Origin: Ramlibacter algicola
GTDB lineage: Bacteria; Pseudomonadota; Gammaproteobacteria; Burkholderiales; Burkholderiaceae_C
NCBI RefSeq assembly: GCF_016641735.1
Contig: NZ_JAEDAO010000001.1
Span: 620,001-684,000 of the forward strand
Direction: 5' to 3'
DNA length: 64,000 nt
Shown here: in pieces, positions 4,219 to 8,344 of the stretch
Layout of the letters: the number at the start of each line of letters is the position of its first letter
Numbering within the stretch: the stretch's first letter is position 1
Notes under the pieces: generated by a model
What the model was told of the DNA's origin: nothing
Database searches by the model: none
What the model saw: only the letters and a program-made list of their open reading frames with translations
Program-made: the position numbers and the translations under genes

Positions 4219-4899
4219 ATGAGCGCACGGCCCCTGATCGCACCGTCCATCCTCTCGGCGGACTTCGCCCGGCTCGGCGAGGAGGTCCGCAACGTGCTGG
4301 CCGCCGGCGCCGACTGGATCCACTTCGACGTGATGGACAACCACTACGTGCCGAACCTGACGTTCGGGCCGATGGTGTGTTCCGCGCTCAAGCCGCACGC
4401 GAAGAAGCCGGACGGGACCGCAGCGCCGATCGACGTCCACCTGATGGTGCAGCCGGTCGATGCGATCGCGCAGGCGTTCGCCGAAGCCGGTGCCGACTAC
4501 ATCAGCTTCCACCCCGACGCGTCCGCGCATGCGCACCGCAGCGTGCAGGCCATCAAGGCCCGCGGCGTGAAGGCCGGCCTGGTGTTCAATCCGGCGACGC
4601 CGCTCGACGTGCTCGACTGGTTGATCGACGACATCGACCTGGTGCTCATCATGAGCGTCAACCCGGGGTTCGGCGGCCAAGGCTTCATCGACTCGGCGCT
4701 GCGCAAGGTGGAACAGGCCCGCAAGCGCATCGATGCGTGCGGCAAGGACATCCGGCTCGAAGTCGACGGCGGCATCAAGGCGGACAACATCGCGCGTGTC
4801 GCCGCCGCCGGCGCCGACACGTTCGTGGCGGGCAGCGCGATCTTCGGCAAGCCCGACTACAAGGGCGTGATCGACGCCATGCGCGCCGCGCTGCGCTGA
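4219..4899 (+). CDS. rpe: Ribulose-phosphate 3-epimerase
   Basis: 226-residue TIM-barrel enzyme interconverting ribulose 5-phosphate and xylulose 5-phosphate (pentose phosphate and Calvin pathways). Motifs in order: [28 protein letters not shown] with metal-binding His and Asp, [25 protein letters not shown] (phosphate-binding loop) and EVDGGI near residue 177. No ribosome-binding sequence precedes the ATG; GAGAAT (4207-4212) lies exactly 6 nt before it, so a leaderless transcript is likely. In many Burkholderiales rpe is followed by gph and trpE; here a small convergent gene and the catalase region intervene. Confidence 0.97.
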
Positions 4900-4906
4900 A
4901 GCGGCC

Positions 4907-5218
4907 TCAGGGCCGGAATTTCTTCTGCCCGTCGGGCAGGTCCTCGCGCAGCTTGTCGTAGGTGGCGTCGAGCTCGGCGCCCTTGGTCGTGTCGGCGACG
5001 CCGCGATCCGCATCCTTCTTCGCCGCGCGCCCGATGCGGTCCTGCGACGGCTCCGCACTTGCCTGGCTGTCCGCCGAGCTGTCGCGCTCGTGCGGCATGC
5101 GCGGCACGCCATGCTGGGTTTCGCCTTGGGCCATCTGGGTGTCGCCACCCTGGCCCGGATCCGGGTGGTCGCCGCCCAGGCCGGTGTCGGGCGGGTTGCC
5201 CATGCGTTCACGTGTCAT
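4907..5218 (-). CDS. Small polar hypothetical protein
   Basis: 103-residue very hydrophilic protein, rich in Asp, Gly, Gln and Lys, without membrane segment or cysteine. Its composition (DTGLGGDHPDPGQGGD, AKKDADRGVAD) suggests a disordered stress-type protein; I do not recognise a family. The ATG at 5218 has a clear AGGAG nine bases upstream, and the reading continues to a stop 8 bases from the end of rpe (convergent). An upstream extension to 5278 is possible but crosses the GTCCTAC element at 5270-5276. Confidence 0.6.
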   Translation of the reverse strand: MTRERMGNPPDTGLGGDHPDPGQGGDTQMAQGETQHGVPRMPHERDSSADSQASAEPSQDRIGRAAKKDADRGVADTTKGAELDATYDKLREDLPDGQKKFRP

Positions 5219-5434: not shown

Positions 5435-5554
5435 ATGGACGTGATCACCGCGCTTCCCGAATGGCTGGTGTGGTGCGCCGCGTTCGCCGCTGCCGCCGTC
5501 GCGCTCAAGCTGGTCGCCAACACGATCGAAGCCGCCCTCGACCTGGACGCCTGA
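5435..5554 (+). CDS. 39-residue single-pass membrane peptide
   Basis: Short frame beginning MDVITALPEWLVW and continuing with an alanine-rich hydrophobic helix (AAFAAAAVALKLVANTI) before an acidic tail. It has an AAAAGG ribosome site 8 bases before the ATG and ends 44 bases before the catalase homologue on the same strand, so co-transcription is plausible. Composition predicts one transmembrane helix with the charged tail on the cytoplasmic side. No family recognised; support is the ribosome site, the hydrophobic helix and the position only. Confidence 0.45.
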   Translation: MDVITALPEWLVWCAAFAAAAVALKLVANTIEAALDLDA

Positions 5555-5598: not shown

Positions 5599-7755
5599 AT
5601 GCCCCAGTCCAAGACGGACGCGCAGCGCAAGACCAAGGCCGGCGATGGCGCGGCCGCCAAGCAGAAACAGCTCGAGGGCTTCACCCAGCAGGCCGAACCG
5701 GTGCTCACCACCGGCGAGGGCCTCGTCGTCAACGACAACCACAACTCGCTGCGCGCCGGCGCGCGCGGGCCGACGGTGCTGTCGGACTTCCTGCTGCTGG
5801 AGAAGCTCGCACGTTTCGACCACGAACGCATCCCGGAGCGCGTCGTCAACGCGCGCGGCGCGGGCGCGCACGGCTACTTCGAGCTGTCGAAGTCGCTGGG
5901 CCAGTCCACCAGTGCCGATTTCCTGCAGGAGCCCGGCCTGCGCACGCCCGTGTTCGTGCGCTTTTCCAATTTCGCGGGCGAGCGCGGGTCGGCCGACACC
6001 GTGCGCGACCTGCGCGGCTTCGCCGTCAAGTTCTACACGCGCGAGGGCAACTTCGACCTCGTCGGCGCGAGCTTCCCCATCTTCTTCATCCAGGACGCGA
6101 TGAAGTTCCCGGACCTGGTGCACGCGCTCAAGCCCGAGCCGCACCACGGCATGCCGCAGGCGTCGAGCGCGCACGACACGTTCTGGGACTTCGTCTCGCT
6201 GATGCCCGAGACGACGCATGCGCTGCTGTGGCTGATGTCCGATCGTGCGCTGCCGCGCAGCCTGCGCATGATGGACGGCTTCGGCGTGCACACCTACCGC
6301 CTTGTCAACGCGCACGGCACGGTGCACTACGCCAAGTTCCACTGGAAGCCCAAGCTGGGACGCCACGCGCTGTGCGCGGAGGAAGCGCGCCGGATCGCGG
6401 GCCAGGACCCGGACTTCCTGCGCCGCGACCTGTGGGAAGCGATCGGGCGCAACCAATTCCCCGAGTGGGAGCTGGGCGTGCAGCTGGTGGAGGAGTCGCG
6501 CGCGCAGTCGCTCGGCTTCGACCTGCTGGATCCCACCAAGCTCATCCCCGAGGAGCTGGTGCCGGTGCAGCCGGTGGGCAAGCTGGTGCTGAACCGCAAC
6601 CCGGACAACTTCTTCGCCGAGACCGAGCAGGTGGCCTTTCACCCCGGCCACGTGGTGCCCGGCATCGACATCACGCCCGACCCGTTGCTGCAGGGACGCC
6701 TGTTCGCGTACGGCGACGCGCAGATCGGGCGCCTGGGCGGCCCGAACCACCAGGAACTGCCGATCAACCGGCCGCTGTGTGCCGTGCACAACCTGCATCG
6801 CGACGGCCGCCACCGCTTCACCGTGCCGCGCGGCGCGGTGAACTACGAGCCGAGCACGCTGGCCACCGGCGCCGAGTTCCGTGTCGACGGCGGGCAGCAG
6901 GGCTTCCAGGGCCAGGCCGACGCACTGCAGGGCGAAACGGTGCGGCGCCGCAGCGAGAGCTTCGACGACCACTTCTCGCAGGCGACCCTGTTCTGGAACA
7001 GCCAGAGCGCGGCGGAGAAGGAGCACATCGTCTGCGCCTTCCAGCACGAGCTGGCGAAGGTGGAATCGAAGGCCGTGCGCCAGCGCGTGGTCGACAACCT
7101 GGCGCACGTCGACGCCAAGCTGGCCCGCAAGGTGGGCGAGCCGCTGGCGATCGAGGCGCCCGATGCCAAGGCCGCGGCCGGGCGCGCCGGCTTTCGCGCC
7201 GCGCGCGGCAAGCTGCCGATGGAGGCATCGCCGTCGCTCAGCATCGATGCGCCGCAGGGCCATGCGATCACGTCGCGGCGCGTCGCCGTGCTCGCGGCGC
7301 CGGGCGTGGAGATCGGCGCGCTGAAGATCATCCAGCAGGCCTTGCACGACGCCGGCGCGGTCACGAAGGTGGTGGCCTCGGCCCTGGGCGTGGTGAGCAC
7401 GTCGTCGGGCCAGCAGCTGCCGGTGGACTGCTGCTTCGCGACGACGTCGTCGGTGCTGTTCGACGCCGTGCTGGTGCCCGGCGGCGCGGCGCACGTTCAG
7501 GCGCTGCTCAAGAGCGGCAGCGCGGTGCACTTCATCCTGGAGGCGTACCGGCACTGCAAGCCGATCTGCCTGATCGGCCCGGCCGCCGACCTGCTGCGGC
7601 CCGTCGGCCTGGACTTGGCCAGCACCCCGCCGTCGGGCGTGCTGGTCGGATCCGGGGACCCCGCGACCCGGGTGCCGATGGCGCAGGAGTTCATCGCGGC
7701 GATCGCGCGGCACCGCCACTGGGTGCGGCCGCAGTGGGAGGCGGTGCCGGCCTAG
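5599..7755 (+). CDS. katE: HPII-type large-subunit catalase homologue with altered distal haem pocket
   Basis: 718-residue clade-2 (KatE/HPII-like) protein: an N-terminal arm, the catalase barrel with wrapping domain (about residues 60-510) and a C-terminal flavodoxin/DJ-1-like domain (about 560-718). The proximal haem ligands are intact: Tyr371 and Arg367 in GRLFAYGDAQ, and His348 in FHPGH (HPII Tyr415, Arg411, His392; a constant offset of 44). On the distal side the essential HPII His128 is Asn84 (RVVNARG) and the essential Asn201 is Ala157 (LVGASFPIFF); Val169 is Phe125; Ser123 is kept. By family knowledge such a protein should lack normal catalase turnover. Start chosen at the ATG with CAGGAG; longer upstream frames lack family similarity. 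Confidence 0.93.
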   Translation: MPQSKTDAQRKTKAGDGAAAKQKQLEGFTQQAEPVLTTGEGLVVNDNHNSLRAGARGPTVLSDFLLLEKLARFDHERIPERVVNARGAGAHGYFELSKSLGQSTSADFLQEPGLRTPVFVRFSNFAGERGSADTVRDLRGFAVKFYTREGNFDLVGASFPIFFIQDAMKFPDLVHALKPEPHHGMPQASSAHDTFWDFVSLMPETTHALLWLMSDRALPRSLRMMDGFGVHTYRLVNAHGTVHYAKFHWKPKLGRHALCAEEARRIAGQDPDFLRRDLWEAIGRNQFPEWELGVQLVEESRAQSLGFDLLDPTKLIPEELVPVQPVGKLVLNRNPDNFFAETEQVAFHPGHVVPGIDITPDPLLQGRLFAYGDAQIGRLGGPNHQELPINRPLCAVHNLHRDGRHRFTVPRGAVNYEPSTLATGAEFRVDGGQQGFQGQADALQGETVRRRSESFDDHFSQATLFWNSQSAAEKEHIVCAFQHELAKVESKAVRQRVVDNLAHVDAKLARKVGEPLAIEAPDAKAAAGRAGFRAARGKLPMEASPSLSIDAPQGHAITSRRVAVLAAPGVEIGALKIIQQALHDAGAVTKVVASALGVVSTSSGQQLPVDCCFATTSSVLFDAVLVPGGAAHVQALLKSGSAVHFILEAYRHCKPICLIGPAADLLRPVGLDLASTPPSGVLVGSGDPATRVPMAQEFIAAIARHRHWVRPQWEAVPA

Positions 7756-7765
7756 CCGGCTGCGA

Positions 7766-8344
7766 TCAGGCCGGCTTGCCCAGCAGGGCTTCCTTCAGCT
7801 TCCAGTCGGCGGGGGCGTGGCCCAGCCAGATGCGCAGGATGGCGTTGAAGAACTCGGGTTCCTTGAACGGCTCGCCCTGCTGGACGCCCTTGACGCTGAC
7901 GACGGCACCGGTGCCCGGGATCCAGTCGAGCGTGAAGCCCTCGCCGGCCTTGAGGCCCTTGATGTCGCTGAACAGCTGGCTCATGCGCATGACGCCGGGC
8001 ACGAGCTTGGAGAACTGCGCCCTCTCCATGTTGTCCTCCATGCCGCGGGCGAACAGCTTGCCTAGTTCGCTGGAGTCGATGTCGCGCAGCATCACCACGC
8101 GCATGCTCTTGGCGCCGGGCATGGACAGCACTTCCTCGGGCGTGCCGGCCTTCTTCGGCAGGTACAGGCCGGCCGTGTAGACCTTGAAGATGGCCTTGAA
8201 GCGGATGCCGGCGCCATTGAGCACCAGCTTGTTGCCCTTGAGGTCGAGCGCCTCGTCGTACTTCACGCCGGACAAGACCACTTCGGCATGCGCCGCGACC
8301 ATGGCGAGCAGCAGCGCGCAGGCTGCCAAGCCTTTCTTCCACAT
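7766..8344 (-). CDS. Periplasmic chalcone-isomerase-like protein
   Basis: 192 residues with a cleavable signal peptide (MWKKGLAACALLLAMVAAHA, cut before Glu21) and a chalcone-isomerase-like domain: GAGIRFKAIFKVYTAGLYL, then ARGMEDNM and a C-terminal FNAILRIWLGHAPADWKLKEALLG. Bacterial members are not expected to isomerise chalcones; the fold probably binds a fatty acid or other hydrophobic ligand, but the function is unknown. Ribosome site AGGAG lies 11 bases before the ATG. Convergent with the catalase homologue, 10 bases apart, with no obvious terminator between them. Confidence 0.85.
   Translation of the reverse strand: MWKKGLAACALLLAMVAAHAEVVLSGVKYDEALDLKGNKLVLNGAGIRFKAIFKVYTAGLYLPKKAGTPEEVLSMPGAKSMRVVMLRDIDSSELGKLFARGMEDNMERAQFSKLVPGVMRMSQLFSDIKGLKAGEGFTLDWIPGTGAVVSVKGVQQGEPFKEPEFFNAILRIWLGHAPADWKLKEALLGKPA

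Follow-up and report, generated by a model that had tools for sequence, protein, structure and literature searches.

The distal histidine of catalases is treated as untouchable in textbooks. The window analyzed here, a stretch of 64,000 nucleotides from Ramlibacter algicola, contains a gene for a KatE/HPII-type catalase homologue (kat) in which both distal catalytic residues, this histidine and an asparagine, are replaced and in which the haem-holding residues and the domains are retained. What does such a protein do, and why has it been kept? The initial annotation had read the product as a full-length catalase-fold haem protein with another function. In this study, the gene was compared with its orthologues and paralogues in Ramlibacter and in other genera, and the distribution of the changes and the selection acting on the gene were analyzed. 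The features of the locus are listed in Table 1.

Table 1. Features of the kat locus, numbered from the first nucleotide of the window.
Feature	Position	Strand	Description	Basis
rpe	4219..4899	+	Marker of the syntenic locus	ORF list, conserved neighbourhood
h123	4907..5218	-	Hydrophilic 103-aa ORF, divergent from p39-kat	Conserved in most Ramlibacter loci
p39	5435..5554	+	39-aa hydrophobic peptide directly 5' of kat, probably one membrane helix	Conserved in relatives
kat	5599..7755	+	718-aa homologue of large-subunit catalases (KatE/HPII type); distal His and Asn replaced	ORF, Pfam, HPII alignment
Asn84	5848..5850	+	HPII His128 (distal catalytic His); codon AAC	
Ser123, Asn124, Phe125	5965..5973	+	Ser123 (TCC, 5965-5967) kept, HPII Ser167; Asn124, HPII Thr168; Phe125 (TTC, 5971-5973), HPII Val169	
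Ala157	6067..6069	+	HPII Asn201 (distal Asn); codon GCG	
Ser158	6070..6072	+	HPII Asn202	
His348	6640-6642	+	Kept, HPII His392; codon CAC	
Arg367, Ala370, Tyr371	6697..6711	+	Arg367 (CGC, 6697-6699) kept, HPII Arg411; Ala370, HPII Ser414; Tyr371 (TAC, 6709-6711) kept, HPII Tyr415, proximal iron ligand	
Ala374	6718..6720	+	HPII Thr418	
C-terminal domain	7276..7728	+	DJ-1/PfpI-like, residues 560-710, retained in altered members	

The Pfam domains PF00199 (Catalase), PF06628 (Catalase-rel), PF18011 (Catalase_C), and PF01965 (DJ-1_PfpI) all scored above their curated cut-offs in the window protein, and residues 7-718 were aligned with the E. coli HPII chains using phmmer, which confirmed a catalase-fold protein over its full length. 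The offset of 44 residues from HPII, described earlier as constant, was indeed constant through the active-site landmarks. The codons agreed with the replacement of His128 by Asn84, Asn201 by Ala157, and Val169 by Phe125, and with the retention of Ser123 and of the proximal Tyr371, Arg367, and His348; the equivalents of HPII R125, R165, R411, and Y415 are present. The pocket changes named in the initial annotation were thus all found, but its list was incomplete. Compared with other KatE, the window protein also carries T168N, N202S, S414A, T418A, F428H, F527H, R111L, W304A, and G329N (HPII numbering), and it differs at 12 of 146 positions that are near-invariant in other KatE. PMC9687031 gives the main-channel gate of KatE/HPII as P-Q-A/G-Q/A-S/T-A-H. 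The gate of the window protein, PQASSAH (residues 186-192), matches this pattern except for Ser at the Q/A position. The score against the NCBIfam catalase HPII equivalog NF008422 was 952.5 bits, below the cut-off of 1102, a value that says little without the score of the paralogue beside it.

An early structure model from a 28-row alignment was poor (pLDDT 53). The model predicted from a 66-row alignment had a pLDDT of 79.6 and a pTM of 0.82, and its best PDB matches were KatE/HPII structures (TM approximately 0.8; rmsd approximately 13-14 over the whole chain). This model supports a catalase fold for the predicted protein and carries no information on the pocket. A promoter scan returned 0 sites, and such a scan is uninformative at this GC content.

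A base error at 5848 or 6067-6072 had been named as a possible source of the two replacements. The same Asn/Ala pair recurs in Ramlibacter G012 (75% identical) and G014 (73% identical), and a sequencing error is therefore very unlikely.

Sixty Ramlibacter genomes were searched, and 52 comparable orthologues were obtained. G001, G034, and G083 yielded only fragments or a frameshifted copy, and no copy was found in G007, G016, G023, G031, and G036. Across the genus, the locus has a conserved order: apaG and rpe, then h123 and p39, then kat. Since they share one conserved locus, the Ramlibacter copies are vertical orthologues, and horizontal transfer as the origin of an odd copy is not favoured. 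By vertical descent, the window gene is orthologous to a second Comamonadaceae KatE, called clade A here, which is usually preceded by p39. Judging from its sequence, the rpe ORF would encode ribulose-phosphate 3-epimerase.

A member was called altered when position 84 was not H or position 157 was not N. Among the 52 orthologues, position 84 is occupied by H (24), Y (9), N (8), F (7), G (3), or W (1), and position 157 by N (26), A (16), S (9), or G (1). An Asn/Ala pair conserved across the clade as a new site, which the initial annotation had suggested looking for, was not found. Its counter-case, a clade in which His and Asn simply vary at full activity, was found as far as the variation goes: 28 of 52 orthologues have no distal His and 26 of 52 no distal Asn. 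Thirty-three members are altered, 21 of them at both positions; five of the 33 (G006, G024, G026, G028, and G080) retain His and have lost Asn alone. R125, R165, F391, R411, and Y415 (HPII numbers) are unchanged in all 52. The gate is of the PQAxxAH type in 32 of the 33 altered members and PQASCGH in one. No altered ORF has an internal stop codon (0/33), and 32 of 33 could be aligned to residue 711 or beyond. Two damaged copies stand outside this altered set: the copy of G078 (L151), which has H/N and is intact apart from one in-frame TAG, and that of G083 (L190), a genome in which both KatE genes are frameshifted, probably owing to assembly quality.

Outside Ramlibacter, both H and N were present in 73/73 KatE of other organisms, 7/7 further Comamonadaceae KatE, and 4/4 named clade A outgroups. 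A search of 399 genomes of the family gave matches in at least 182, and among the matches listed, 40 places were fetched, of which 33 were clade A genes and seven were other KatE. Among these 33 clade A genes of other Comamonadaceae genera, drawn from the matches listed, 28 have H/N with the proximal Tyr, and four have no distal His (two N/N, one Y/N, and one Y/S). The remaining one of the 33 (G099, L265) keeps H/N and has no stops, but its proximal Tyr is replaced by Ser and the neighbouring residue by Leu; judging from these replacements, the protein may hold haem abnormally.

The peptide reported just upstream of kat was also found, and it has no Pfam match. In an HMM search whose counts are partly circular, because the model was seeded with the same peptides that it recovered, a hydrophobic peptide of 30-50 residues preceded the gene at 48 of the 56 Ramlibacter loci, among them 30 of the 33 altered ones, and in 46 of the 52 comparable orthologues; L179, L187, and L189, among the eight loci missed, have no upstream sequence. 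The same partly circular search gave 4/4 outgroups, 27/33 loci of other genera, 0/40 normal paralogues (200 bp flank), and 1/74 other loci, the single one being L047, itself a clade outgroup. With the window peptide alone as the tblastn query, p39 was found in 42/52 Ramlibacter loci, 7/33 loci of other genera, and 0/4 outgroups. It also accompanies the gene at loci elsewhere, for example at L254. p39 is probably a partner of kat and may act as a membrane tether. The divergent ORF h123 matched no Pfam family and no known family. In several relatives (for example L166, L170, L174, L146, L180, and L159), a phosphoglycolate phosphatase-like (gph-like) ORF lies between kat and a chalcone-isomerase-like gene; it was sought systematically in five of the 15 relatives viewed. 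No such ORF lies at 7756-7766 of the window, and two gph-type matches above the cut-off occur elsewhere in the genome. No pathway gene adjoins kat at the locus.

The distal residues have been lost repeatedly. Gene trees built without the pocket columns required at least eight His/not-His changes at position 84 (56-row tree) or 12 (94-row tree), which rules out a single ancestral loss of His; both were quick trees with SH-aLRT support only and long branches, and the two differ in the placement of a group of 15 rows, many of them intact, so the exact number of losses is soft. Ten independent His contrasts stand on well-supported branches, and clear cases of His loss are G069 beside G033, G025 beside G022, and G002 beside G074 and G018. 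Thus, the distal His and/or Asn have been lost repeatedly in Ramlibacter and in a few other genera. Among the positions listed, changes of V169 accompany His loss in the independent contrasts (on average 5.7 contrasts for and 0.0 against; median p 0.031, sign test). No significant association with His loss was found for N201 (2.5 for and 0.0 against; median p 0.5). The mildest altered members already have no His: G021 is changed at two of the 146 positions (H128N and V169T), G025 and G069 at three each, and G002 at four, His included. Catalytic-residue loss was therefore early. The members that keep His and have lost Asn may represent, on these trees, a regain or a different order of loss.

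The 146 positions near-invariant in 124 distinct reference KatE were used to locate the other changes. Intact Ramlibacter members differ at 0-2 of them (18 counted, L151 left out), and altered members at 2-25. Of 378 changes, 298 land on only 16 positions, H128 and N201 being among them by definition, and 93 positions never change. The 16 are D118, H128, T168, V169, N201, N202, F206, I208, F214, W304, T386, S414, D417, T418, F428, and F527. They presumably lie mainly in the distal pocket and channel, an assignment based in part on PMC9687031 and in part on other work on HPII. Several of them (F428, F527, W304, D118, I208, and T386) are not known to have a role. The same positions were hit more often than expected in five sequences of other genera (p 6.6e-8, 6.6e-8, 0.0022, 0.0011, and 6.6e-7), of which the first two (L255 and L256) represent one lineage; the Tyr-less, His-keeping sequence is included among the five.

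Concentrated changes could reflect a pocket released from constraint or a pocket remade for a new purpose. We consider it probable, judging from the retained and replaced residues, that Kat is a haem-loaded catalase fold without normal turnover, a pseudo-catalase whose retained function would at no time have required the distal His. The principal alternative, which we regard as distinctly less likely, is new haem chemistry of a peroxygenase- or peroxidase-like kind, or small-ligand binding (NO, CO, O2, or an organic hydroperoxide) that serves sensing or storage, in an enlarged or greased Tyr-haem pocket. Haem sensing and haem storage, both proposed in the initial annotation, would be further possible roles. 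The alternative would be in keeping with the haem-holding residues unchanged in 52/52, with replacements restricted to small residues at 157 (A, S, G) and uncharged ones at 84, with the coupling of V169 to His loss, and with the recurrence of the same positions in other genera. However, six letters are seen at position 84, four at 157, and seven at 125, and there is no conserved new pocket residue, so conservation gives no pointer to a particular new chemistry or ligand site. Position 84 also had the most inferred changes (15 in the 33 altered sequences) among the 342 positions invariant in 23 intact members, a maximum inflated by the definition of 'altered', which itself rests partly on position 84. 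A pocket that varies without converging on one site speaks against a single shared new chemistry, as do the lack of a significant tie between N201 changes and His loss and the lack of an adjoining pathway gene. A pocket freed from catalytic constraint, in a haem-loaded protein retained for another purpose, would fit the pattern better than a specific new site. The data do not separate a pseudo-catalase role from new chemistry.

The genome of the window (4.20 Mb, 99.95% complete) holds one other KatE, at C1:2771955-2774000, so the second, normal catalase suggested for a search does exist. It keeps His and Asn and is 52-54% identical to the window protein; no match to KatG or Mn-catalase was found in the genome. 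The normal paralogue (L002) has the same domain plan, but a Cys replaces the His cross-linked to the proximal Tyr, and there is no p39 within 1.5 kb. Normal KatE was found in 41 Ramlibacter species, and all 40 copies fetched (that of G002 was left out) have both distal H and N. It is present in 27/33 altered genomes versus 12/19 genomes with an intact copy. None was found in six of the 33 altered genomes, including G017 (L181; 100% complete), whose sole KatE is strongly altered (25 of 146 positions changed) and which gave no match to p39, KatG, or Mn-catalase. A catalase role of some kind would be most missed in G017, which counts against the pseudo-catalase reading, as do the altered members that keep His and the loss of the proximal Tyr in G099.

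It is improbable that altered proteins are still catalases working at a low or altered rate via water or other pocket residues, even though the whole domain plan, the proximal side, and, in nearly all members, a PQAxxAH-type channel gate are kept and five of the 33 retain His. HPII H128N is described as inactive in PMC9687031, and H and N are universal among the 124 reference KatE. R. albus is reported to be catalase-negative, a phenotype not assignable to one genome of the set, and R. cellulosilyticus catalase-positive. Species with an altered copy can be catalase-positive, but those concerned (R. cellulosilyticus and R. montanisoli) also carry the normal KatE, and the phenotypes therefore do not decide on the activity of the altered copy. 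A soil metaproteome containing Ramlibacter catalase does not separate the two KatE.

Selection on the window-type gene was estimated as omega for three groups: 0.079 for intact members (19), 0.089 for His-altered members with Asn kept (7), and 0.124 for Asn-altered members (26). The normal paralogue in the same three species groups gave 0.075, 0.083, and 0.087. At residues 34-300, omega was 0.052 in intact and 0.096 in Asn-altered members (paralogue 0.060 and 0.054); at residues 301-520, it was 0.059 and 0.117 (paralogue 0.055 and 0.042). The catalase core is relaxed about 1.7-fold relative to the paralogue (0.096 vs 0.060) and still strongly constrained. In the C-terminal domain, omega was 0.106 in intact and 0.144 in Asn-altered members, and 0.141 and 0.125 in the paralogue, 0.141 being the value for the Asn-altered species' own paralogues, so that this domain is constrained to the same degree as its counterpart in the working paralogue. 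The tail F698-R710 is equally conserved in altered and intact members. The altered genes have kept their full length, and purifying selection acts on them.

These values bear on whether the gene is in slow decay and has simply met no stop codon yet. Altered members have longer branches and higher omega, and, with the core relaxed, slow decay could account for some of the pattern. As the whole explanation, it is very improbable: omega is far below 1 over 26 and seven lineages, 33/33 altered ORFs are without stops, and the changes fall on few positions rather than being spread. Pseudogene status was rejected, as omega values of 0.089-0.124 are far from 1 and all altered ORFs are open. Least probable of all is a regulatory or structural partner subunit assembling with normal KatE, because, even with the higher share of altered genomes that carry normal KatE and a second match of normal-KatE strength in 5/5 altered or Tyr-less genomes of other genera, six of 33 altered genomes gave no such KatE and the paralogue is only about 52-54% identical.

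For the pseudo-catalase, loss of normal turnover is proposed by analogy with HPII H128N. Since all checked haem-holding residues are kept and H128N is inactive, a haem-loaded protein without turnover would be the likeliest state. The distal His and/or Asn were lost first, and a recurrent set of some 16 positions that hardly vary elsewhere, chiefly in the distal pocket and channel, then changed, while the iron ligand, the checked haem-holding residues, the fold, and the C-terminal domain stayed under purifying selection. The protein would fold and carry haem but show no catalase-like turnover of peroxide, whose removal would fall to the normal KatE in genomes that carry one. The chaperone-like C-terminal domain could give the protein a function outside catalysis for which the distal His is dispensable. 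We tentatively propose, at somewhat less than even confidence, that Kat is a haem-loaded tetramer of high stability, displaying its Hsp31/DJ-1-like chaperone domain under stress and possibly held at the membrane by p39. The constraint on the C-terminal domain is no higher than in the paralogue, so a chaperone role is not singled out. A more speculative and rather doubtful extension is that the p39-KatE module is a membrane-tethered Tyr-haem protein with dispensable catalase activity, which in Ramlibacter would have become a pseudo-catalase family with a freely evolving pocket and new haem chemistry or ligand sensing.

The repeated losses amount to a natural mutational scan, which would sort the invariant residues of catalases into those needed for turnover only (about 16) and those needed for fold and haem. 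Repeated loss of His in one bacterial family, from a gene that stays full length and keeps its haem-holding residues, would imply selection on large catalases for some function other than peroxide turnover. Comparison of close orthologues with and without His makes this moonlighting question (chaperone, haem, or membrane partner) testable. The annotation 'catalase HPII' can, moreover, be wrong.

Among known systems, E. coli HPII shares with the window protein a full-length alignment, the same domains, and the equivalents of Tyr415, Arg411, and His392. Coral allene oxide synthase and its relatives are catalase-fold enzymes with other chemistry. They resemble the window protein in using the catalase fold otherwise and differ in that the distal His is kept there, whereas the window protein has Asn84. 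In the literature, which was partly covered and is weak evidence of absence, no description was found of a natural KatE without the distal His or of an association with p39. Chaperone activity of such C-terminal domains is demonstrated for the Neurospora catalases CAT-1 and CAT-3 in PMC9137513. The window protein likewise has a DJ-1/Hsp31-like C-terminal domain and a charged tail; in CAT-1/CAT-3, the catalase core is active, whereas the chaperone activity of the Ramlibacter domain is putative. Finally, the two substitutions of the window protein were made singly in HPII in the laboratory, and the H128N and N201A variants exist as crystal structures (1gg9 and 1ggj), so the fold tolerates each of them. 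In contrast to those variants, the window protein has both substitutions together naturally, with at least 10 more changes at near-invariant positions.
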